Source of the DNA: a virus | Reading direction: 5' to 3' (one strand) | Virus record (IMG/VR): IMGVR_UViG_3300034067_000002 | Coordinates: 1 to 24,123 of that record | Length of the DNA: 24,123 nucleotides | Part shown: positions 1 to 19,515 of the stretch, in pieces | Layout: each line of letters starts with the position of its first letter | Position numbering within the stretch: the stretch's first letter is position 1 | Translations under genes and position numbers: made by a program | The notes under the pieces: generated by a model | The model's input: only the letters and a program-made list of their open reading frames with translations | Told to the model about the DNA's origin: nothing | Databases searched by the model: none

Positions 1-3000
1 TCCTGTATAGGGTTAACGTTATAGGTGCAGGATTATAGTTACTACCGGCGGCAGCCCCTACCGTTTTAGACATTATAACTCTGCAGTATACTGTAGTAGG
101 GTTACCTTGAGCATGTTCTAATGCAGGTAAAGCTATATTAAGAGGTATAGGGCTTGGCTGGTTAATAGACTTAACACCGCCACTATTAGAAGTAGCCCCT
201 ATCAAGTTAGTTATATAATCTATAGACTCAGCTGTAAACATACTAGGAGCTATAGATCTAGGTGTTATAGATTTACCGTCTATTATACCCTTTCCGTTGA
301 GCTTATTTATACCGAAGATTATGTCGTCTTCGTTTCTAGCCTCTATGATCATGTCATTACTTGGGCTTATTCTGACAGAGGTTGTACCCTCAATTACCTC
401 TAGTCTATCAGATACAAAAGTACCCTTAACTATAGCATCTCCAAATATTGTAAGAGCAAAACTATTCCATTTACCGGAAGCTCCTAGATCTCCACCCGAT
501 CCGACGTACCTACCAACAAACTTATGAGTTAAATCGCTAGGATTAGCTGAATCGAACAAAGTTACTATATCACCATATACAGGTACCCCACCAGTCACAG
601 CCGAGGCAGCTTCAGTATCACTCCAAGCAGTTAAGCCTGACACACCTTTAGTGAAGGACCCTGCTCCTCTATCGCCTTTAACAGAGTTACCTGCTTTAGC
701 CTTAGACACTGTGTAGGTCTTAGATATAGATTTTTGTGTAGGAGTATGCGTTGCAGTAAAAGTTACAGAAGCAGAATCTGTATTTAGTCCTGATACAGTA
801 TAAACACCTGAGGAATTTATTGATGCAGTTACAGTACCACTAGAAACAGCTTTAGTAAATGTGCAGGACCCTGTTACGTCAGTAGTTCCGAAGAACACCT
901 TAAACTGTCCACCAGTACCTGCGTAGCTAGTAACTGTTCCATCGCTTAAAGCTGGAACGGTAGCATTCTCATTTGTTAAATACCCAGATACTGACTGTTC
1001 TGCACTGAATCTCACGGGAGCAGACCAAGAAGACCCGGCAGACCATGTTCCTGAAGAGTCTTTAATATATGCTCTTTTTATTATATATACCACTTCATAC
1101 TCTGCAGGAGTGGGCGGAGTTACGCTCCAGCCTGCTGGTGGGGTTTCTGTAGTACCGTTATACGAACCATCATTAGTAGCTGGAGTGGTTACGGTATTTC
1201 CTATTTTTTCTTTCTTAAATACATGGCTAACGTACACACTAGTACCGTCGGAACCATCAACAGCCCCCATTACATATGGAGTAGCTTCGTTACCATATTC
1301 TAATTTTAGCCTTCTAGCGTATGCAAGACCTGTAGTTATACTACTAGGATAGTGATATACTCTAACATATACTTTAGCTCCTGCTGCGGTATTTGCAGGT
1401 ATAGTCATTGTAGCAGACTTACGTTCGTATGTTGTGCTACTAGAGGATACAGCTGCTGAAGCTGTCCAAGGATCTAGGTATACGTATAATCTAGATGAAG
1501 CACCTGCAGCTTGTGCGTCTGCGTCTACTTTCAAATCACCAGACACCGTCAATTGATCACCAGGATTAAAGTCTTTTCCTACTTCTCCTACGTAAATGCC
1601 GTAGAAGCCATAGGCATTACTAGACTTCTCTTCATGAGAATTTTTCAGAATATTAGCATTAATACCGTTAGAACCGTCTATAGAATACTTAGATATTAAT
1701 ACCACTTCACCTTCTACAGTGCTGCCATCAGATTTAGATATTTTACTATAATTCCATAAATAAGGATTAGACGCAGTAGGTTCTGAAGCTGTAATAGACC
1801 AACCTGAATCTGAAATAGCAGGTTTTGTATTAGTACTAGTGAGTAAGTAGTACTCCGTAACAGAATCTATCCCAACACCCTCAAATCGTACAAATGTAGT
1901 TGCATCTGCAGGTACAGTTGTTGGCTTACTTCCAGACCATTCGTAAAAATTAACAAAGCGTTTTGAAGGACTGTAATCAAATGAAGCATTAGTACCTGAT
2001 TCATCTTCTGCGTAAATAGGCACAACGCCTGCACTATCACCATCTTTAGCAACTAAAAGGGTGTATGTAAGATTTGAAGGTACTGTAGTAGGCTTTGTAC
2101 CGCTCCATTCATAGAAATTTACGTATTTCTTATTAGAGCTGTAAGTGAACGATGCCCCAGTACCTGCAGAATCTTCTGCATATATAGGAACTACACCGCT
2201 ACTTATACCATCTTTAACCTGAACAGCATTACCAAAACTATCAGTAATAGTGTACGTACCGTTACCATTGTCTGTAACAGTAACTACACCATCAGACCCT
2301 CTTGCAGCAATAAGAGTAGTAGTTGATGAACTAGATCCATCAGTATAGTTTACAGTGGTTTTATTCCACAAATACGGATTAGCTTCAGATATAGCTCCAG
2401 CCTCTGATACAGAACCTTTCCATGGGCCTGTTGGAGCAGTTACAGGGTCAGTGCCTAGTTGGTACTCTTCCACTATTTCGGATATGCCAACACCTGTAGC
2501 ACCGTCCTGAAGTTTATATATAGTTATAAAGTCATTAAGCCCTGAAACGGATCCAGATATTTTTACAGTATTTTTACCAGCGAAAGACGAGGCATTGTAT
2601 GTATATTGTGAAGTTAGTTTAACGCCTGTAGACACTCCGTCTACATACCAGTATCCAGAACTTAGGTCTACGTTATCTCCATACGCGGTAAATACTATAG
2701 AGCTAGGAGCTACTAAGTTCCCGTCCTTGTCGTACTTAAAGTAGTGGCCTGTTGATACTATTCTGAAACTTCTTCCGTCTTCACCCTTGACTAACATCCA
2801 AGTATAAAGCGATGGGTCAGTAGGTATAGATCCGTCAGTAACATACGCTATACCTAAGTACTTTTTGCCAGCTTTGTCAGTAGTGCTGAAGTCTATGGTC
2901 CCATCATCACTATTTGCGTAAGCAAATACAGGTACATATGTATCACCAGGATCACCTTTAATACCTGCTAGAGCTATCTGCACATTATCAAGTATGATAC

Positions 3001-5146
3001 CTCTACCATTTCCAGTAGTATCTGGTACTATTATAAGATAGTCTGTGCCACCAGAAATAGGGTCAGGTACTGTATATTGAAAACTTATTTTAGTAAATAC
3101 ATTATTCACTATAAAGTTCTGGAAGCCGCTACTCCCATTATCATTAGTAGAGTACGCGACAGCCATATCAGTACTTGGGTTAGCAGGATCTGCTTTTACA
3201 TACATAGACACTATTACAGTCTGGCCAGCAAAAGCTAAAGCACTAGATTCAGGTATTTCTAAATATATAGCATTACCTCTACCTGTAGAGTCTGGTGAAG
3301 CTATACTGCCAGACGCTCTCATAGCTTGAGATCCTGAGTAACTGTCCGAAGTAGCACTAACACTAAATCCAGTCTGAGCTACTAAAGTTGATACTTCTGC
3401 TGCAGATTCAAATAATATAGAGTATGATGCTGCAGAAGTAGAGCTACTGTTGAACACTCCAGGAGTGCTCCACGAAGGATCTTGCGGATCTTTTCCATCT
3501 GAGGTGAATAACCTAGAAGACGAATATACTGTTTGTCCTGGTAAAGGTTCTGGGGCAGTTAACTCCCATCCAGAAGGTTTTGGGCTAGAGTAAGATCCAC
3601 CTGATGGAATAACAGGAGTGCCTGTAGCAGCTTTATACACTGTTACTAGTTTTTGTTTCTGGCCTACAGTCCTGCCAGAACCTCCATCTATAACTACGTT
3701 TCCAGAAATAGCTAGAGTGCTTCCATCCCATCTAATATATTTGGTAGAATCTCCTAAGTCAAATTTAAATGTAGAAGAATCAGTGTACCCTGCCCATAAC
3801 CCTGAAACAGTACCTTCATATGTTTTTCCAACTGTATATAGGCTAGGAGTGTTACCACCAATCCAACCCAACTCGTAGCTTGCAGCTGTTATTTTGTCGG
3901 TTATAGTTCTACCATCTATAGATAGTATGTTGCTTGTTGCATCAAACAAGAATGGAGACGCTACAGTCTCTCCATTGTAAGTTCCTGACTTACCTATTGT
4001 AACGTTTCCTGTAGACGCATCAAAACCAAAAGTTTGGTCACCATTTTGGTCATAACCTAGTATATATCTACTATCTATGTATACCTTTGTATTATCTGCT
4101 AGAGCATTATATGAGGACACTAGGATGTATCCTGGCTCTGAACTTTCATCTGAATTGTCTGTTATGTATACTTTTTGGTATACATCTGTTGAGCTATTAT
4201 CGTTCCAGCCGTGTACAGTAACTTTAACAGCTAAAAAGGTTCTGAAAGGTACTCCAGTGAACATATGCTCATCTGATAGACTAGTCTCTGTCTTGGCACT
4301 AGACCAGTCAAGTGCAGCATAATTAGTTTCGTTCCTGGAAACAGGAATATATTGAACCGTAGTGGCTCGTCTATGGGAGCCGTCTGTACCTCTATCCCAA
4401 TTCCAGGACACTTTCATATTATACGAGGCAACATTAGACTCTACTTTATATGCTGTTATGTTCAAGTCAGTTACAGCCGTTGGTGGGGCAGTATTATTAG
4501 TTGTAGTTATCTCTCCACCGTACTCTGTAACACCCCCATCATCAACAGACCCATCAGAGAATACAAAAGATGATCTTATTCTAAACTTATGAGTACCAGC
4601 AGGTATAGTTAATACAATTTCGTCTCCATCAGCTACAGCCCCAGTAAATACTGTAGTATACGTAGACCAGTCATCATCAGACATTTCTATCTTGGCTAGG
4701 TTAGAGTCACCAGAAATAAGGAATACTGCAGCTGTAGGAGGAGAACCTATAGCTGCTGAATCTGAACTTATAGATGTAATATTAGATATAGTTGCTGGAG
4801 TTTTAGTTATTACATTTGTGTGTTCTACTATATCTAATACCGTTGCTTCTTGCAAATACTGTGCGTCCAATAAAGCATCGTTTCCAGATACAAATTCGTC
4901 TACAAAAGCAAGCGCAAAATCGTATGAAGTTCCAGTATCTAGACCGCCTATATACGTGGACCCCTCATTTCCAGCGACATCTATCCTAGTTGCCGAACTC
5001 TTAGGGTCTGTAGATTTCTTAACCCATACAGACCTATGTGAATAATCATTATCTACAGGAACGGAGTGAAGTATTTTAACGCGAGAGTATCCAATCTCAA
5101 AATTAGAGATTGTGAACGCATTAGGTTTTTTGTTATTTAATATCAT
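1..5146 (-). CDS. Giant modular tail fibre / tail-tip protein (C-terminus beyond the window)
   Basis: This minus-strand reading frame opens with ATG at 5146, in an ATGA overlap with the hub gene stop, and I read it without a stop to base 1. That is at least 1715 residues, with the C-terminus missing. Modules in order are: a fibronectin-III-like N-terminus (about 1-330), a beta-rich structural repeat, a carbohydrate-binding-like jelly-roll region (about 565-720, ending LDNVQIALAG), a KGDPGDTY collagen-like linker, two modules with a PYLWN motif (proline at 924 and 1128) flanking a 56-residue duplication, and an Ig-like domain at about 1383-1486. A segment ending IFGDAIVKGTFVSDRLEVIEG follows, typical of the chaperone-like tails of lambda gpJ relatives. 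Its position after DIT and hub suggests a central fibre or host-binding tip, comparable in place to T5 pb4 but far longer. The function is inferred; domain borders are approximate. Confidence 0.85.
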   Translation of the reverse strand, partial: MILNNKKPNAFTISNFEIGYSRVKILHSVPVDNDYSHRSVWVKKSTDPKSSATRIDVAGNEGSTYIGGLDTGTSYDFALAFVDEFVSGNDALLDAQYLQEATVLDIVEHTNVITKTPATISNITSISSDSAAIGSPPTAAVFLISGDSNLAKIEMSDDDWSTYTTVFTGAVADGDEIVLTIPAGTHKFRIRSSFVFSDGSVDDGGVTEYGGEITTTNNTAPPTAVTDLNITAYKVESNVASYNMKVSWNWDRGTDGSHRRATTVQYIPVSRNETNYAALDWSSAKTETSLSDEHMFTGVPFRTFLAVKVTVHGWNDNSSTDVYQKVYITDNSDESSEPGYILVSSYNALADNTKVYIDSRYILGYDQNGDQTFGFDASTGNVTIGKSGTYNGETVASPFLFDATSNILSIDGRTITDKITAASYELGWIGGNTPSLYTVGKTYEGTVSGLWAGYTDSSTFKFDLGDSTKYIRWDGSTLAISGNVVIDGGSGRTVGQKQKLVTVYKAATGTPVIPSGGSYSSPKPSGWELTAPEPLPGQTVYSSSRLFTSDGKDPQDPSWSTPGVFNSSSTSAASYSILFESAAEVSTLVAQTGFSVSATSDSYSGSQAMRASGSIASPDSTGRGNAIYLEIPESSALAFAGQTVIVSMYVKADPANPSTDMAVAYSTNDNGSSGFQNFIVNNVFTKISFQYTVPDPISGGTDYLIIVPDTTGNGRGIILDNVQIALAGIKGDPGDTYVPVFAYANSDDGTIDFSTTDKAGKKYLGIAYVTDGSIPTDPSLYTWMLVKGEDGRSFRIVSTGHYFKYDKDGNLVAPSSIVFTAYGDNVDLSSGYWYVDGVSTGVKLTSQYTYNASSFAGKNTVKISGSVSGLNDFITIYKLQDGATGVGISEIVEEYQLGTDPVTAPTGPWKGSVSEAGAISEANPYLWNKTTVNYTDGSSSSTTTLIAARGSDGVVTVTDNGNGTYTITDSFGNAVQVKDGISSGVVPIYAEDSAGTGASFTYSSNKKYVNFYEWSGTKPTTVPSNLTYTLLVAKDGDSAGVVPIYAEDESGTNASFDYSPSKRFVNFYEWSGSKPTTVPADATTFVRFEGVGIDSVTEYYLLTSTNTKPAISDSGWSITASEPTASNPYLWNYSKISKSDGSTVEGEVVLISKYSIDGSNGINANILKNSHEEKSSNAYGFYGIYVGEVGKDFNPGDQLTVSGDLKVDADAQAAGASSRLYVYLDPWTASAAVSSSSTTYERKSATMTIPANTAAGAKVYVRVYHYPSSITTGLAYARRLKLEYGNEATPYVMGAVDGSDGTSVYVSHVFKKEKIGNTVTTPATNDGSYNGTTETPPAGWSVTPPTPAEYEVVYIIKRAYIKDSSGTWSAGSSWSAPVRFSAEQSVSGYLTNENATVPALSDGTVTSYAGTGGQFKVFFGTTDVTGSCTFTKAVSSGTVTASINSSGVYTVSGLNTDSASVTFTATHTPTQKSISKTYTVSKAKAGNSVKGDRGAGSFTKGVSGLTAWSDTEAASAVTGGVPVYGDIVTLFDSANPSDLTHKFVGRYVGSGGDLGASGKWNSFALTIFGDAIVKGTFVSDRLEVIEGTTSVRISPSNDMIIEARNEDDIIFGINKLNGKGIIDGKSITPRSIAPSMFTAESIDYITNLIGATSNSGGVKSINQPSPIPLNIALPALEHAQGNPTTVYCRVIMSKTVGAAAGSNYNPAPITLTLYR
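1873..2197 (-). repeat. Tandem 56-residue duplication inside the giant fibre gene
   Basis: Two consecutive coding units each begin GVVPIYAED, with the first glycine codon at 2197 (residue 984) and the second at 2029 (residue 1040), a period of exactly 168 bp. Both continue with an aromatic segment KKYVNFYEWSGTKPTTVP or KRFVNFYEWSGSKPTTVP. The second unit is cut shorter and leads into the next PYLWN module. Protein identity is high while third codon positions differ, so the duplication is old enough to have drifted but is kept at protein level. Confidence 0.85.
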
Positions 5147-8100
5147 GTTATATACACCCATTCTGAATATGTGAAGTTAGGGTCTCCTTCAGAATATCCA
5201 TTAGTGGCACGTATTCTAAAGGTGAATTTTCTGTATGCACCTACCTTCCCTGTGTTTGTGTTGTAATCTTGCATATTATCTACTAGACCATACGTGTACG
5301 ATGAGTATGTAGTATCTAGTAGTACACTGCGTAATACTGTGGTTGAGTCTTCTGCCAATACCTGAATCTCGTAAGTACTGGTTCTAGGGCTAGGTGAACT
5401 AGTCCACTTAACTGTTACTTGACTGCCTGAGAACATGCCATCAGAAGATACATTATCGGACCAAAAAGACCCTACAGGGGCTAACCCTACAGGGACGTCG
5501 CTAGATCCTGCAGTGTAGTACAATACTGCGTACTTACTATACTTGCCGGAGGAGTCTAAGGCCCTTACTTTGAACCTATACGAGTTACCTACTTCAAGAC
5601 CTTTAATAGGTATGTAGTGCTTAACATCAGTGCCATCTTTTAATATTATAGTAGATATAGGAACTGTGTAATCACCTGACTCCTCCTTCCAATCTCTTAC
5701 ATCATATCTTATGATAGAAGGTGACGGAGAAGGATCCCATACCAGAAGGCCATACGTATCGTCCTCATTTACTGCATAAGGGTAAGAGTGGTTAGGTAAC
5801 TTTATATACTCTAGATTAGTAGGCGGTAGAGGAGATGGTGAAGGGTTGTGGTTATTCTCCCCCGACTCGTCCTGTGATTTTGTGTAAGAAAATACATCGC
5901 TATCATAATCTTCTAGAAACAGGGATACCTTACCGTCAGATTTTAGAGTAATTTCTGATACTCTAAACTTCTTAGCAGTGTCTCCCCAAAATCTAGGGTA
6001 TCTCAAAGTAACGTTAGAGTTAGGAAATAAGTAGCAATATTTATAATAAGTTGTTAGAGTTATTTTTCTGGAATATCTAGACTTATTTAATTGCCTTTGG
6101 GCCCATTCTCTAGCAGTGTAATAGTTAGTTATATATGGAAATGATACGTTTCCTTTATTTTGAACACCCTTATCTTGGCTCAGATACTCGGAATTAAAAA
6201 AATTAATTTGTGTACTAGACCACCCTTTGGCAGGATCTACTATATTAGCCTGTATAGAGTTCCATTTATCTTTTGATGTTTGGTCTTTTGTAGTTATAGA
6301 GCCTATAACTTCTGATATATCTATATCTGCGACTGGGGCATCATCAGTCTCAACTGATAAGTGATACTTACCACCCAATATATTTATAGTGCCATCGAAC
6401 TGATTTAACAAACTCTCAATGTTGGAGGTTACTGTATTAGACGTCTCCAAAACTACGTTTGTCTGCATGAAGGTTCTTAATGCTTCAGAGGCTGGGTCGC
6501 TAGGTCTAAGTTTCCACCCTAAGTATCTCCAGTATGTTAAAAAATTGTTCTCATATGACTCTGTTATAGAATCCATTATATCAGCAACCTGTTTAAAGGA
6601 TTTAAAATCTATAACATTCTTCGGTAGGCCTCCACCGCAGATTGGATCAGTCATGTAATCGAGTAATTGCCATACTGGATTTAATGTGTACTGGTTTGGT
6701 GTTTCATTCCCAAACTCATCGTATGTTGACACTAAACTACCCGAAACTACAGCGTCTATCTCTGGTAGGGTTGTCTCTTCTTCTGTTATAGAAAACTTAT
6801 ATACAATGTACGCTGTATTTAATAATCTAGTATTATTGTCCCAGTATTCTGAAGCAGGTCTTCCTGTTCTTACAGCCCATTCAGCCTGTCCAGCAAAATT
6901 ACCTGCTGCTGCTATTGATACTAATTCCTGAGCCGCGTTTTGATCTGGGTATCCGTGGAACGCTGTTATTTGTTTAACTCCAGTACTTCCAGTTATAGAG
7001 AACTTGTATACTGTTTCACTAGTACCATTTTTAGCATGACGTGTTCCACCTATCCTATCCTCAAATGTAGGTGTTGGTGGGGGTAGGAGTGGTACATAAT
7101 CCTCTCTATACTGGGAGTAGTAAGACCGATACCTTGCCTCTTCTATAGCATTTATATCAGGCTGTGCAGAATTAGACATAAATGCAGAGACAGTGTCTCC
7201 ATTTGCTTGGTTTCCTAAACATAATTCGCTATTGGACTCTTCAGCTGAGGAACATATAAGGCTTTGACCATCTAGGTAGAAGTTAAGGAATGCGTCTATA
7301 GGGCCTTCGCAGAACGCATAAACTACATATACTACACTGGGGTTGTTTTTTAGCGTGTCTACAAATACCGGTATACCTGGAACCTTGCGAACACCATAGA
7401 CTTTTGGTAGGTATTTAGCACTTAAGTCTATACCAAGTTCTACGGTTCTTTCTACGTCTACTTGGTACTCTTTTAACGAGGTCTTTAATCCGAACCAACT
7501 CTTTTTCAGCTTGTATCTAGTTTCTTTAGTAGTATACTTAGATACTAAGTCAACAGATCTAGCAGCGTGCTGAAATCCTGTGTCTGTTTGGTGCGCTGGA
7601 ACCCTAGCACCATCACCCGGAACTTCTTTTCCATAATTTGGGTTTGGTGTTACTCCATCCTCTAGAAACTGGTTAGTATCTGTCTCTAGTCCCCTATGAG
7701 ACTTATCGTCTGTAATCCTTCCATTAACCTTTTCAAAGTCCGAAAACTTACCTGCACATTCCCAAGTTACTGTAGAGTTTCCACTGACAACACCTTCAGA
7801 CACGTTAACGTTTGTTATATCACCAATAAAATACTGCATAGGGCCGTTAGTGTCTTTATCGAACGGTATTATACTATCCGTGTCGTCTAAGAATGCTCTA
7901 AGTACCTGTATTTCTCTTCCAACATAAGACTCATTAGTATTCTCTACTAAGGCTCTGTCAAGTTCTTCTTTGAACTCGCCAGCCACTGTAATACTTAGTT
8001 TATAGTTAGTTATTCCTGTGGTCTGTCTAACGTCTCCAACCCTACTAACTCTGCCAGCTTGATACACTTTACCGTCCCAGGTAACGTCAGAAGTATAGTC

Positions 8101-12860: not shown

Positions 12861-13268
12861 CTACTTCTTCTTGCTAGCCTCTCTAATGGCTTGTTTTCTT
12901 GCCTTAGAGTCTAAATACCGTATAACGTCCAGTACCTTCATTCTGTCGTCTTTATCTACATCATATAATTCTAGTAGTACTTGTAGTGCGGATAGATCCT
13001 TCCCGCAGTATATAGGCTGCATTCCACCAGTATAATTGTCTGGTAGTGAGTTAAAAATTTCAATACCAACATGCACATAAGAAGGGAAATCTTCATAATC
13101 AGGTGGCATTTTCTCGTAGTCTGGAGTATCCCCTAAGGCTTCGCACATGGCTAAGTATTTCTCCTTAGTCATGCCTATCTTAGAATTGTCAAACCACTTT
13201 CCTAGATAGTCTAAGGTAAGTTCGTGTCTATTCTTTTCGAAATCGGTCGATATTAAACACCTGCTCAT
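12861..13268 (-). CDS. Tail assembly chaperone, second frame (gpT-like extension)
   Basis: This frame overlaps the end of the upstream chaperone gene and is +1 relative to it. In lambda and relatives the second chaperone domain (T) is made only as a frameshift fusion to the first (G), binds the tape measure, and is absent from the virion. Here the frame carries an acidic, helical domain (EKNRHELTLDYLGKWFDNS to YLDSKARKQAIREASKKK). The frame is open up to an ATG at 13316, but neither that ATG nor the one chosen here at 13268 has a convincing ribosome binding site, which favours entry by frameshifting near 13240; the frame-specific part would then be 12861-13238. Position directly before the tape measure is diagnostic. 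The start is therefore uncertain while the reading frame is secure. Confidence 0.75.
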   Translation of the reverse strand: MSRCLISTDFEKNRHELTLDYLGKWFDNSKIGMTKEKYLAMCEALGDTPDYEKMPPDYEDFPSYVHVGIEIFNSLPDNYTGGMQPIYCGKDLSALQVLLELYDVDKDDRMKVLDVIRYLDSKARKQAIREASKKK

Positions 13269-13635
13269 TAATCCAAGTGTCAAATATTTGAGAATGTTTA
13301 AGCAGTAAAATAACATTCTCTTTAGAGAACTCTACCTCAGCCTCTGGGTCTTCAATTTTGCTTTCGTCTATAAGCATCAAACGATTTAAATATTTCATTT
13401 TCAGCCCTTTCCAGCCTTTGATAGATGCTTCAGCAAACAGTTCTAGGAATTTTTCCTCATCTATTTCCTGTACAGGTACTCGTAGTTTAGGATCTATTTT
13501 AGTAACTTCAGACTTTTCTCTAAGTCTACGAGATACTTCTCTAGATACTGCAGCTAGTGTTACTTCAAATCCTGGAAGTGAAGGGAATGGTACTACTACC
13601 GTTTTTGTGTCTACAATTATATCATGTAAATTCAT
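13228..13635 (-). CDS. Tail assembly chaperone, first frame (gpG-like)
   Basis: A 135-residue protein placed between a tail tube-associated gene and the tape measure, the standard place of lambda G and its analogues. Such proteins coat the tape measure during tail assembly. The sequence begins with a beta-type segment (VVPFPSLPGFEVTLAAVSREVSRRLREKSE), then a helical, charged body ending NIDRFRKE. The opening resembles the short tail chaperones of many siphophages that carry a similar F-P-G-F-E-V motif. The ATG at 13635 has AGAGGA with about 7 nt spacing. The last 40 codons overlap the second chaperone frame. The stop is TAG at 13228-13230, three codons after a TTT CGA pair that could serve as a +1 shift site. 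Confidence 0.82.
   Translation of the reverse strand: MNLHDIIVDTKTVVVPFPSLPGFEVTLAAVSREVSRRLREKSEVTKIDPKLRVPVQEIDEEKFLELFAEASIKGWKGLKMKYLNRLMLIDESKIEDPEAEVEFSKENVILLLKHSQIFDTWINEQVFNIDRFRKE
13237..13242 (-). promoter_or_regulatory. Candidate +1 frameshift site joining the two chaperone frames
   Basis: In the first frame the codons read CGA TTT CGA AAA GAA TAG. A tRNA-Phe on TTT can slip forward to TTC because the next base is C, and the waiting codon CGA is usually slow. After the slip, translation continues GAA AAG AAT AGA in the second frame. Only the base pattern is seen; shifting is inferred. Confidence 0.45.
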
Positions 13636-14492: not shown

Positions 14493-15635
14493 CTACTCCG
14501 CCATAAAGTCTAGTGAAATCTCGTCACCACTAGTTAAGTTGGTGCTAGAAGGTATACCTTTAAACTCGAATGAGGTTGAAACAACATCATCAACTGACAT
14601 ATCTGGAACAGATAAGTGAGCTTGTGGTATATTAATAACTATTCTAGGACCCGCAGAGCCTCCAACATTTAACGTGATGTTCGCAGCATTAGTTACAGCA
14701 CCTTGAACGTTGCTCAACATATGCTGTAATAACTCCGCAGCACCATAAGGATTTCCGGAAGTTCCTGTTGACCCTGGAGTAGTGCGTAAGTACGCCTCAA
14801 CAGAACCAGTAACCTCGAAACTACCAGTAAACGAGCCGATTGGAGAATCAACCTGAGCTAGTGTAGAAGGTGTTAAGTATGTTATGTTGTTGTTAATAGT
14901 TACAGTAGCTCCAGTAATAGGTATGTTATAGTTATCGTTAACACCAGGCGCTACATCAGCGTTCATACTCATTGTAGTAAGTTTGTTTACTAAGTAGTTC
15001 TTACTAGCAGGTATTTTAACAAAAGAGTCTGCAGTTGGAGTATCTTCATCTAAATCAAGTCCTGCCGAAGACATGAACGTAGGCGTAGGGATTGCCTCGT
15101 ATTTTAACGCTTGTCCAGACCATGCAGCTTGTGAAATGTCAGATATATCAACTGATATTTCTACTTGGTTCACTTGAGCATCACTAACTAAATATACTTG
15201 GTTGTCTATTTTGAAGTATAAGTATAGTTTAGTTAAAACGTGTGCAGAGTTGTTATTAAATCTAACTTTAAAGCTAGAAGAATCACCATATACTGTTGAA
15301 GTACTTGTTGAGTTATCGAAGTCTGTAGCTATTCCGTCTTTGTTAGCCAAAGAGTGCCACAGTAGCATATCTACAGTAAAATGGTCTGTATTTTTAAGGT
15401 ACGGAGTATTGTAAGTTGTAAAGCTCCATTCTACAGGGTCTAGAGACTCATTAAATCTCTTAGATCCGCGAGTTGGTGCTGGACCTGCTTCGTCTAAAGT
15501 TACGTCAGAAGTCGAAACTGATTGTGATAGTGAATACCCTTCTTGAATCGGTATCTCAAAAGTATTTGAGTTGTCGTGTCCAGATGTAACTGTACTAACC
15601 CAAAGTCTAGTATTCCTTGATAGGTTTATAGCCAT
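14493..15635 (-). CDS. Major tail tube protein, T5 pb6-like, without the C-terminal Ig domain
   Basis: A 380-residue protein that closely matches T5 pb6 from memory: NTRLWVSTVTSGHDNSNT, then DEAGPAPTRGSKRFNESLDPVEWSFTTY, LLWHSLANKDG, PITGATVTINNNITYLTP, PIGSFTGSFEVTGSVEAYL, and the closing DDVVSTSFEFKGIPSS. The pb6 family has two fused tube domains per chain, so its tail forms trimeric rather than hexameric rings. T5 pb6 is about 464 residues because of an extra C-terminal Ig-like (Big2) domain; here the chain stops after GDEISLDFMAE, so that decoration is absent. The ATG at 15635 follows AGGAG with 9 nt spacing. A perfect consensus promoter lies about 160 bp upstream inside the previous gene and would give it the high expression such a protein needs. 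Confidence 0.95.
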   Translation of the reverse strand: MAINLSRNTRLWVSTVTSGHDNSNTFEIPIQEGYSLSQSVSTSDVTLDEAGPAPTRGSKRFNESLDPVEWSFTTYNTPYLKNTDHFTVDMLLWHSLANKDGIATDFDNSTSTSTVYGDSSSFKVRFNNNSAHVLTKLYLYFKIDNQVYLVSDAQVNQVEISVDISDISQAAWSGQALKYEAIPTPTFMSSAGLDLDEDTPTADSFVKIPASKNYLVNKLTTMSMNADVAPGVNDNYNIPITGATVTINNNITYLTPSTLAQVDSPIGSFTGSFEVTGSVEAYLRTTPGSTGTSGNPYGAAELLQHMLSNVQGAVTNAANITLNVGGSAGPRIVINIPQAHLSVPDMSVDDVVSTSFEFKGIPSSTNLTSGDEISLDFMAE

Positions 15636-17319: not shown

Positions 17320-17344
17320 AAAAAGGCTGACCGCAGGGTCAGCC
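17320..17344 (-). terminator. Strong rho-independent terminator after the major capsid gene
   Basis: On the minus strand GGCTGACC and GGTCAGCC (17337-17344 and 17325-17332) form a perfect 8-bp stem closed by a 4-nt loop, followed by TTTTT (17324-17320). It starts 15 bp after the capsid stop codon and precedes the connector gene. Confidence 0.93.
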
Positions 17345-17359
17345 TCTTGTTAAGTTAGC

Positions 17360-19288
17360 TTAAACAGCTGCGTAAGTTACCGCTGCAACACCTTTAGCAT
17401 TGTTAGAACCATCTAAGAATAATGCTTCTAAGTTAACGCGTTGAGTCGCTACAAATGCTGTGCGATCAGTCTCAATGTCAAACTGACTACGTAATGTTAG
17501 GTCGCGTTGGCGAGGCACTACGAAGTTAGTAGTATTAACAAGTACCGCGTACGCAGTGTTCACTGCAGCAGGAGCGAATTCAGAAGATACTAAAACACGG
17601 ATACCGTAGATATTACCTACTTCACCAACTAGTTTAGTAGCATTTTCAGCACCAACTTGTTGTACGTCATTCCATTCTGGGTCTAAGATTAAGTCCCAGT
17701 AAGCATCTTGAGAGATTATAACTACTAAGTCTTTCTTATTAACACCGTATAAGCCTAATTTCTTACGAGCTTCCATGATTTGAGCAGCTGTAACTTTAAC
17801 AGAACCATCTGCCTTAGCTGTTGATACGTGTTTAGCGTTAGCAGCTAATGCGTGAGTAACTAAACCTTTAGGTTTGTTAACACCATCACCTAATAAGAAT
17901 GCAGCGTCCATTTCAGCAGCATGAGCTTCAACTAATTGTTGACGAATTAATGGAACTAAAGATATGATTACGTCTTCATCAGTTTCTTCAGTTAAGTATG
18001 CTTTAGCAGCTAACTTGAATGTACGTAATGTACGTTCAGTGATGTTCATAGTTACTTCACCGCCAGTACGAGAAGAATCACTACCATCACCCATTGCAGC
18101 TGAAGATACCCAAGAGGCTTTAGAGCGGCCAGGGTTAATTGGTAATGTTAGACTAGCTGAAGTCATTGGAATTTCGTTAAATAGCGGAGCAACTACTAAG
18201 TTAGCTTGGATATCGCGAATCAAATTGGTTGAGAATACAGTTTCTAAACCTTCATTAGTAACTGCTATGCTTGAGCTAGTGTTTACAGCCTTGATAACGT
18301 TAGAGCCATATGCAGTTTCTAAAGGTTTAACACCTTTAACTACACCTAAGATAACTAATGTATCAATATCTTTCTCATTTAAAGAGCCTTGATGTTGGCG
18401 CATAGCTTTGCCAATAGTTGCAGCAGTAGGGGTACGAGATGAAACTACTTGAGCGATCTCGTCTTTTAATGCTACGATTTGGTCGTTTGTAGCCTTAACC
18501 ATTTCTTGGAATGATTCAGTGCTAACTTTCATTTCTTTTTGTAAAGCGGCTACTAAGTCTTCAGCCTCTTTACGAGCAGCTGTGCGGATTTGTTTTTCAC
18601 GTTCTTGAGCTTCTAACTCTTTAGCTTTGCGGGCAGCTTCTTCTTGTTGTTTTTGTTGTTCTACGCTAAGTACAGCGTCTTTTGCCGCTTGGATGCTAGC
18701 AGCTTGCATTTCTTGCAACATGGCTTGCATTTCTTCTTTAGTCATAATTTTATTTCCCTTTATATGTGTGCCAGTAGGCTTATTAAGATTAGATTTAAAT
18801 TTTTCAAAGTCTTCTGACTTCATGCTTTTTGCAACTGAGAATGTCGAGTCCTGGTTGCAAGGTATAGAAACTATTGATATTTCGTGTAGTTCTACATCCG
18901 TTATATAGTAAGTATCTGAATGTGAATCATAGCTAGCGTCTAATATTCTGAATCCTACGCTAAATGTTTTTAATATACCTTCTTTTACTAGATCGTATAT
19001 ATCGCCTGCAGCCTTGCTTACTACAGCTCTAATTTTAAGACCTATATCGGTAACTTCATAATCCACCATCTTACCTACAGGTCTAGAGTGGTCATGGTAC
19101 GCTAAAATTATAGGGTTCTTTAAATAGTTCTGCATTGCTGCTGGCTTTTCCCATGCAGACTTTGGAATAACATCTCCAGCCCTATCCTTAGAGGTGGTAT
19201 TAGCGTATCCTTCGATAGTTAGCGATCCGTCGTCATTCTCTTTAGTGCATGTTAGGTTGGTTAAGAGTTTAGCTGAATATACAGTCAT
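17360..19288 (-). CDS. Prohead protease fused to HK97-fold major capsid protein
   Basis: A 642-residue chain. Residues 1-160 are an HK97-type serine protease (S78): GYANTTSKDRAGDVIPKSAW, AYHDHSRPVGK with a likely catalytic histidine at 65, TFSVGF with serine 110, and VELHEISIVSIPCNQD with acidic residues at 133 and 136. Residues 182-300 form a charged coiled coil like the scaffolding delta domain, and the rest is the HK97 capsid fold (LETVFSTNLIRDIQ, LPLIRQQLVEAHAAEMDAAFLLGDG, IYGIRVLVS). An internal ATG at 18745 (M182) has AAAGGG upstream and would start a 461-residue capsid precursor without the protease. The main ATG at 19288 follows AGGAG and overlaps the previous stop. All 19 arginines after M182 use CGC or CGT, while the four before it use AGA or AGG. 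Confidence 0.93.
   Translation of the reverse strand: MTVYSAKLLTNLTCTKENDDGSLTIEGYANTTSKDRAGDVIPKSAWEKPAAMQNYLKNPIILAYHDHSRPVGKMVDYEVTDIGLKIRAVVSKAAGDIYDLVKEGILKTFSVGFRILDASYDSHSDTYYITDVELHEISIVSIPCNQDSTFSVAKSMKSEDFEKFKSNLNKPTGTHIKGNKIMTKEEMQAMLQEMQAASIQAAKDAVLSVEQQKQQEEAARKAKELEAQEREKQIRTAARKEAEDLVAALQKEMKVSTESFQEMVKATNDQIVALKDEIAQVVSSRTPTAATIGKAMRQHQGSLNEKDIDTLVILGVVKGVKPLETAYGSNVIKAVNTSSSIAVTNEGLETVFSTNLIRDIQANLVVAPLFNEIPMTSASLTLPINPGRSKASWVSSAAMGDGSDSSRTGGEVTMNITERTLRTFKLAAKAYLTEETDEDVIISLVPLIRQQLVEAHAAEMDAAFLLGDGVNKPKGLVTHALAANAKHVSTAKADGSVKVTAAQIMEARKKLGLYGVNKKDLVVIISQDAYWDLILDPEWNDVQQVGAENATKLVGEVGNIYGIRVLVSSEFAPAAVNTAYAVLVNTTNFVVPRQRDLTLRSQFDIETDRTAFVATQRVNLEALFLDGSNNAKGVAAVTYAAV
18743..18761 (-). 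promoter_or_regulatory. Probable internal ribosome binding site for the capsid-only product
   Basis: The minus strand reads AAAGGG (18761-18756), 10 nt, then ATG (18745-18743) in frame with the protease-capsid gene at residue 182. The following residues MTKEEMQAMLQEMQ start the predicted scaffolding coiled coil. Codon use changes at the same point. Internal initiation is inferred. Confidence 0.6.
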
Positions 19289-19515
19289 TTCTTAACTCCT
19301 TCTTTAGTAACTATCTTCTTGGTAGCCTTCTCATTTCGCTGAGATATAGCATAATTCTTATACTCTACCAAAAAATTTCTCCAATTTTTGAAGGCTTTAT
19401 TTATAGATAAAACCTCTACAGGCTTAGTAGTATACGCTCCGTAATCACTACGGGTCTGAGGCAAGTTATCGCCAAAGACGTTATATACTTCCTTTAATAT
19501 TTTTTCTTTATTCAC
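19285..19515 (-). CDS. Small protein of unknown function between portal and protease
   Basis: This is a 76-residue, lysine-rich basic protein I do not recognise. It appears helical, with KILKEVYNVFGDN at the start, KAFKNWRNFLVEYKNYAISQR in the middle and a basic tail NEKATKKIVTKEGVKK; there is no signal peptide or membrane segment. The start is GTG at 19515, backed by AGGAG with 9 nt spacing inside the end of the portal gene, and it overlaps the portal stop by 8 bp. Its own stop overlaps the protease start as ATGA. The coupled position between portal and protease suggests a role in head assembly, such as an internal or scaffold-like helper, but nothing in the sequence proves it. Confidence 0.7.
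   Translation of the reverse strand: MNKEKILKEVYNVFGDNLPQTRSDYGAYTTKPVEVLSINKAFKNWRNFLVEYKNYAISQRNEKATKKIVTKEGVKK

Follow-up and report, generated by a model that had tools for sequence, protein, structure and literature searches.

A 642-amino-acid (aa) open reading frame (ORF) in a 24-kb virus fragment joins a prohead protease to a scaffold domain and a major capsid protein, and we propose, with a probability of about 0.85, that this one open frame would be used as two nested genes. One would start at M1 and the other at the in-frame ATG of M182, with codons tuned for high output only after M182 and a small number of full-length fusions dosing the protease. The codon switch marks the second start, and the phage probably makes much shell protein and little shell protein that carries the protease. 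The first-pass annotation of this DNA had claimed two products from the gene, with the capsid made from an internal start; this claim gains support from a comparison of 47 fused lineages and from a second, unrelated family of fused genes.

Gene organization and domains of the fusion

The fragment, 24,123 nucleotides in full and referred to below as the window, has a head and tail module of the T5 type on its minus strand, in the order terminase, HNH-type gene, portal, small gene, fusion, head-tail adaptor, neck, tail terminator, tail tube, tape measure, and hub. Between the tail tube and the tape measure lie two small genes (12861-13316 and 13228-13635, minus strand) that overlap by 89 nt in different frames; their place and layout are possibly those of a frameshifted tail-assembly chaperone pair. 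A 1,720-aa ORF with repeated collagen-like/hinge segments, a putative tail or fibre protein, runs off the left end (2-5161, minus strand).

The features of the fused gene are collected in Table 1. Peptidase_S78 is the sole Pfam protease match in the fusion (6.6e-17), with a score of 62.6 bits that passes the Pfam gathering cutoff of 21; Pfam detected no S49/ClpP-like protease domain. Phage_capsid matches residues 350-620 (6.3e-16), and the PHROG assignments are head maturation protease (2e-45) and major head protein (2.8e-35). In an alignment of 62 rows, H65, S110, E133, E136, and S138 of the protease domain are invariant. K333, the last residue before the predicted mature capsid protein, is kept in 98% of the rows and aligns with the T5 pb8 site between K159 and A160; the pb8 precursor of T5 loses 159 residues. 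The reading frame from M182 spans the scaffold and the HK97-fold capsid. An AlphaFold2 model built with 12 sequences, whose overall confidence is low (mean pLDDT of 57.5, pTM of 0.31) and which was used for the domain layout only, places the protease ahead of a low-confidence linker at residues 168-183, followed by a long helix from residue 184 (pLDDT of 62 to 77 over most of its length and about 45 at its end).

Table 1. Features of the fused protease-capsid gene and its flanks (window coordinates)
Feature	Coordinates	Strand	Basis
Full-length ORF, 642 aa: S78 protease, linker, scaffold (delta) domain, HK97-fold major capsid protein	17360..19288	-	Pfam and PHROG
Shine-Dalgarno AAGGAG of the full-length start M1 (ATG 19288-19286)	19296..19301	-	Sequence; duplex energy of -8.8 kcal/mol
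Peptidase S78 domain, residues 16-156	18821..19243	-	Pfam; alignment of 62 rows
Linker, residues 157-181; low-confidence/unstructured in model; differs between lineages, always in frame	18746..18820	-	Alignment, model
Internal Shine-Dalgarno AAAGGG, 10 nt 5' of the internal ATG	18756..18761	-	Sequence; duplex energy of -5.5
Nested ORF from the internal ATG (M182, 18745-18743): predicted 461-aa scaffold-capsid precursor, codon optimized; counterpart of the T5 pb8 precursor (458 aa)	17360..18745	-	Sequence comparison, codon use
Predicted long helix, residues 184-297 (scaffold or delta domain)	18398..18739	-	AlphaFold2 model
Predicted mature capsid protein, residues 334-642, after cleavage between K333 and A334	17363..18289	-	Conservation; T5 pb8 alignment
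Intrinsic terminator right after the capsid stop	17321..17348	-	Sequence prediction; annotated terminator at the same place in T5

Codon use changes abruptly within the open frame

All arginine codons had been reported to change type at residue 182, and the count is exact: residues 1-181 contain three AGA and one AGG, and residues 182-642 contain 10 CGT and nine CGC. By hand calculation, the chance of this split (4/0 versus 0/19) is 1/8855 for arginine alone. Across the switch, ATA falls from 10/15 to 3/24 of the isoleucine codons and GGA/GGG from 5/10 to 0/23 of the glycine codons. Over all synonymous families, heterogeneity gave a chi-square of 108.8 against 34.4 ± 8.0 in permuted data (p = 5e-4, the floor of 2,000 permutations). 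An unsupervised change-point search placed the best break after codon 179, with a 95% interval of 158-188 that brackets the ATG at 182. A sliding codon score, trained on residues 320-642 only, ranged from -0.10 to -0.47 in all 40-codon windows up to residue 200 and from +0.29 to +0.43 from residue 181. By both measures the profile is a sharp step rather than a smooth one, and the claimed switch stands; the positions first given for the ORF, the internal ATG, and the AAAGGG 10 nt upstream of it are also right (Table 1).

Optimization is confined to the capsid part, as had been suggested. The protease part scores -0.41, like the 17 other genes in the window (-0.19 to -0.69), and when either half of the capsid part is scored against the other, the values are +0.21 and +0.23. 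The major tail protein (14493-15635, minus strand) has the second most capsid-like codon use in the window (-0.19), which is consistent with codon choice tracking copy number.

Start signals at the junctions of fused lineages

Two scans of viral contigs yielded about 150 loci. Both domains are present at 153 loci, 96 with one open frame and 57 with two genes, although these counts include duplicates and overlapping fetches. The fused genes fall into 47 lineages at <85% identity, all of them environmental sequence and drawn from many independent metagenomes. Bacterial genome contigs were also searched for fused relatives, and none were found by this search.

At the junction, 43 of the 47 fused lineages carry an in-frame ATG or GTG with a Shine-Dalgarno sequence (37 of 47 for ATG only), where the start codon was required to lie 4 to 12 nt past the Shine-Dalgarno match and GTG was allowed after GTG cases came to light. 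Six lineages have GTG in place of ATG as the internal start. Examples are AAAAAGGAAGAAAAA-ATG in L090, AAAGGAGAAGAACCT-GTG in L039, and ATTAAGGAGACAAAAAAC-GTG in L058. Size-matched regions drawn at random from these genes gave a mean of 4.4 lineages with ATG/GTG (maximum of 11 in 5,000 draws) and 3.8 with ATG only, and synonymous shuffling gave means of 18.9 (maximum of 26 in 300 shuffles) and 17.9 (maximum of 24), respectively. Permutation and shuffles thus rule out a chance origin of the start signal and the codon switch.

In the alignment, M182 falls where the capsid precursor begins in T5-like phages that have it as a gene of its own. Over 11 non-overlapping pairs of lineages, codons for unchanged amino acids differ in 12% of cases before the internal start, in 38% of cases in the protease domain (Fisher p = 1e-4 for these two values), and in 31% in the capsid; positions -5 to -2 show 3/184 synonymous differences over all pairs, which are not independent; and local RNA structure is weak at the internal start, which lies in the weakest tenth in 34 of 43 lineages and in the weakest 2% in the window, with the qualification that in several tests the internal start was picked by its Shine-Dalgarno sequence, itself favoring A-rich, weakly folded sequence and conserved codons. 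Anti-Shine-Dalgarno duplex energies are -6.4 for internal starts, -6.0 for the genes' own starts, and -1.2 for other in-frame ATGs. In the window, the internal Shine-Dalgarno sequence (-5.5) compares with a mean of -1.7 at the other in-frame ATGs of its ORF. It is weaker than that of M1 (-8.8), so any excess of capsid would need another cause: a more accessible start site, translational coupling to the upstream part, or processing of the mRNA.

The same nested products could also be placed under transcriptional control, by a capsid-only transcript from a promoter within the protease part, as for herpesvirus UL26.5. A capsid part with its own ribosome site and a terminator right after it would fit such a transcript. 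We consider it unlikely, as promoter-like matches occur at the level expected by chance (6 versus 5.8), an argument that is weak given that T5-like phages may use other promoter types.

It is very unlikely that the gene has a single 642-aa primary product, a self-cutting polyprotein in which the codon step would reflect folding or another local constraint. Such a product would leave unexplained the start codon and Shine-Dalgarno sequence in the linker of 43 of the 47 lineages, as well as the frozen synonymous sites and the codon change at the same spot, and hundreds of proteases per shell would presumably be wasteful. These points weigh against an open frame that is under selection throughout and the precedent of Gifsy-2 and MD8, which have been described as single fused genes.

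The full-length product and the history of the fusion

If the nested reading is correct, the protease would have to be supplied by the full-length protein. The linker is in frame in every fused lineage and varies in length, being too variable to align reliably. Its pN/pS is 0.49, compared with 0.15 for the protease and 0.40 for the scaffold, and because few synonymous changes occur at the start signal, this value is inflated and understates the constraint. Protein-level selection thus acts on the linker, which makes it probable that the full-length fusion is produced as well. Apart from the fused gene itself, a 106-kb fused relative yielded no S78 protease and no HK97-type capsid gene, and a 112-kb relative likewise has only one capsid gene of this family; the fusion must therefore be the source of the protease.

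Both halves of the fusion find their best phage-record matches in T5-like phages (Demerecviridae), where protease and capsid are neighboring genes in the same records and in the same order; separate-gene matches are T5 (210-aa protease, 458-aa pb8 precursor), Vibrio phage phi 3, and Serratia phage Slocum. Split loci all fall on the T5-like side, and T5 and all split lineages examined have a stop between the genes. In a tree of 62 rows, fused versus split needs one change (100/100), and one branch sets all the fused genes apart. Midpoint rooting nests the split clade among the fused genes. With very distant outgroups, the root falls between the two states with moderate support (split, 87/94; fused, 89/92), with one change for each. 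The tree would therefore mean either one fusion or one fission. In seven split phages (L001, L003, L164, L017, L147, L149, and L151), the capsid start is in the protease frame, with a stop and 3-15 bases between the genes, and one or two mutations would thus be enough to fuse or split them.

Split relatives such as phi 3, Slocum, and PR1, with both genes in the same frame and a stop and a few bases apart, make it conceivable that the fusion is accidental, through loss of the protease stop, or an assembly error, so that the internal start alone matters and read-through from the protease is neutral. We regard this as highly improbable, since the fusion is common to 47 lineages from many independent metagenomes that all sit on one side of a single branch and the linker pN/pS is 0.49.

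The codon step in fused and split relatives

The codon difference between protease and capsid parts is significant by permutation in 44 of the 47 fused lineages, the exceptions being L014, L052, and L055. Pooled over the fused lineages, AGA/AGG drops from 0.68 in the protease part to 0.16 in the capsid part and ATA from 0.31 to 0.06; the genes just upstream have codon use like that of the protease part. In each lineage, the change goes toward the usual high-expression set (CGT/CGC, ATC, GGT). A strong change-point was found in 25 fused lineages, at a median distance of 25 codons from the internal start; the codon step is near the internal start, yet not always at it. L052 and L055 lack both the codon step and the internal start (four lineages lack the start and three lack the step), and L036 and L048 have the step with no in-frame internal start, so the link between step and start rests on very few cases. 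At the junction of L036 and L048, near residue 177, a Shine-Dalgarno-like stretch is followed by an out-of-frame ATG (..AAT GTT..), which may be due to chance.

Comparison with separate-gene homologues, as proposed in the first-pass annotation, revealed the same contrast in 16 of 16 split T5-like lineages (AGA/AGG, 0.50 to 0.02; ATA, 0.23 to 0.01), so codon choice follows capsid abundance and not foreign origin. The T5 head needs 775 capsid copies (PMC5292684). That annotation had raised, as an alternative, a capsid half that came from a phage with different codon use and was joined to a resident protease. On this reading the step would be a recombination scar, and in one genome alone such a scar would indeed look like a sharp step at a domain boundary; but nearly all fused lineages show the step, as do all 16 separate-gene lineages, both halves best match T5-like phages in the same records and order, and the codons shift to the high-expression set lineage by lineage, which makes import scarcely credible. 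Because the split genes show the same contrast, a foreign origin of the capsid was rejected.

An unrelated family of fused genes

Phages JLK-2012 (E. coli), FSL SP-016 (Salmonella), RHph_X2_26 (Rhizobium), and PAJU2 (Pseudomonas) encode an S78-type protease in one frame with an HK97-type capsid of another kind, which, unlike that of the window, is not closely related to T5. The junction has a Shine-Dalgarno sequence and ATG in 4/4 (e.g., CATAAGGAAAAGACCATA-ATG and CGAAAGGAGTCCCGA-ATG). The codon difference between its two sides has p = 0.015, 0.004, 0.001, and 0.007, respectively, and the shift is weaker than in the window family; in JLK-2012, CGG makes up 7/13 arginine codons before the junction and 0/26 after it. 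The product name in the PAJU2 record is "prohead protease fused capsid protein." JLK-type genes lie far off in the tree, near the split relative Mcat7, which argues that their fusion was probably independent.

A JLK-type fused gene (L160, 3992-5929) is present in 1,245 of 5,426 complete E. coli genomes, and among the matches listed, the E. coli genes are annotated as a single "phage major capsid protein." The abundant product of the gene probably starts near residue 193. In a JLK-type relative, Stenotrophomonas phage SOVA965 (L168, 1501-3586), three genes are annotated (a protease and two capsid pieces), which looks like the result of frame breaks or sequencing errors.

Comparison with known systems

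The principle is that of the nested lambda C/Nu3 genes, in which an in-frame internal start with a Shine-Dalgarno sequence in the protease gene gives protease plus scaffold and scaffold alone (Shaw and Murialdo 1980, cited in PMC8508860). Mu I/Z and PaMx73 gene 27 (Val177) are nested protease/scaffold genes of the same kind (PMC4378225). As in lambda, the window fusion has an in-frame internal start codon and Shine-Dalgarno sequence 3' of the protease domain. Unlike in lambda, where the scaffold is nested and the capsid gene is separate, what is predicted to be nested here is the precursor of the major capsid protein, and the protease is of the S78 rather than the S49/ClpP-like type; on these two points the window fusion departs from the lambda type. 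In the literature covered, no codon step is described for lambda C/Nu3, Mu I/Z, or PaMx73.

Gifsy-2 is reported to have a fused protease-scaffold-capsid gene (Effantin et al. 2010), and in MD8 a single open frame encodes the protease, the scaffold, and the HK97-fold capsid (PMC8508860). The window shares this arrangement with them and differs in its S78 protease, theirs being ClpP-like. For MD8, gene fission is raised, and the covered part of the paper does not mention an internal start (PMC8508860).

T5 pb11 and the pb8 precursor resemble the window fusion in their homologous domains, terminase-to-tail order, near-equal precursor length, and start place, and in T5 the N-terminal scaffold domain of the pb8 precursor is removed by the protease (PMC5292684). 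Unlike T5, with two genes and a stop between them, the window has one frame without a stop. Our literature search, in which the T5 and Gifsy-2 head literature was covered only partly, returned no paper that combines prohead protease, capsid, fusion, and internal initiation. In herpesviruses, UL26/UL26.5 yield a protease-scaffold fusion and scaffold alone from nested, 3'-coterminal genes, and the scaffold carries the protease into the capsid. Separate transcripts give rise to these products, and the nested one lacks the capsid protein; the likeness to the window fusion is one of analogy.

Proposed mechanism and implications

Under the nested-gene reading, ribosomes that start at M1 would produce the 642-aa protease-scaffold-capsid protein, and those that start at M182, from the internal Shine-Dalgarno sequence, would produce a large excess of the 461-aa precursor, which corresponds to T5 pb8. 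Because both starts lead through the capsid part, it would make up most of the output, and the codons past M182 would be tuned for high expression, with the protease part keeping the ordinary codons of the genome. A minority of full-length subunits may then co-assemble with the short precursor by way of the scaffold and capsid domains that both possess, with the dose of protease in the procapsid set by the ratio of the two starts. Once in the procapsid, the protease would cut off the scaffold domains at the conserved lysine (K333).

We hold at even odds the broader view, drawn by analogy with lambda C/Nu3 and herpesvirus UL26/UL26.5, that a nested internal start is general for fused protease-capsid genes, having accompanied at least two independent fusions, that the start ratio doses the protease through a few tagged subunits in the shell, and that annotated capsid starts are wrong. 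The findings offer a sequence-level answer to how a phage may encode protease and capsid protein in a single gene and still avoid a head full of protease, and they make the idea of protease dosing testable. They also suggest that fused capsid genes of the JLK kind are misannotated and that a codon step within an open frame may serve as a usable marker of hidden nested genes.
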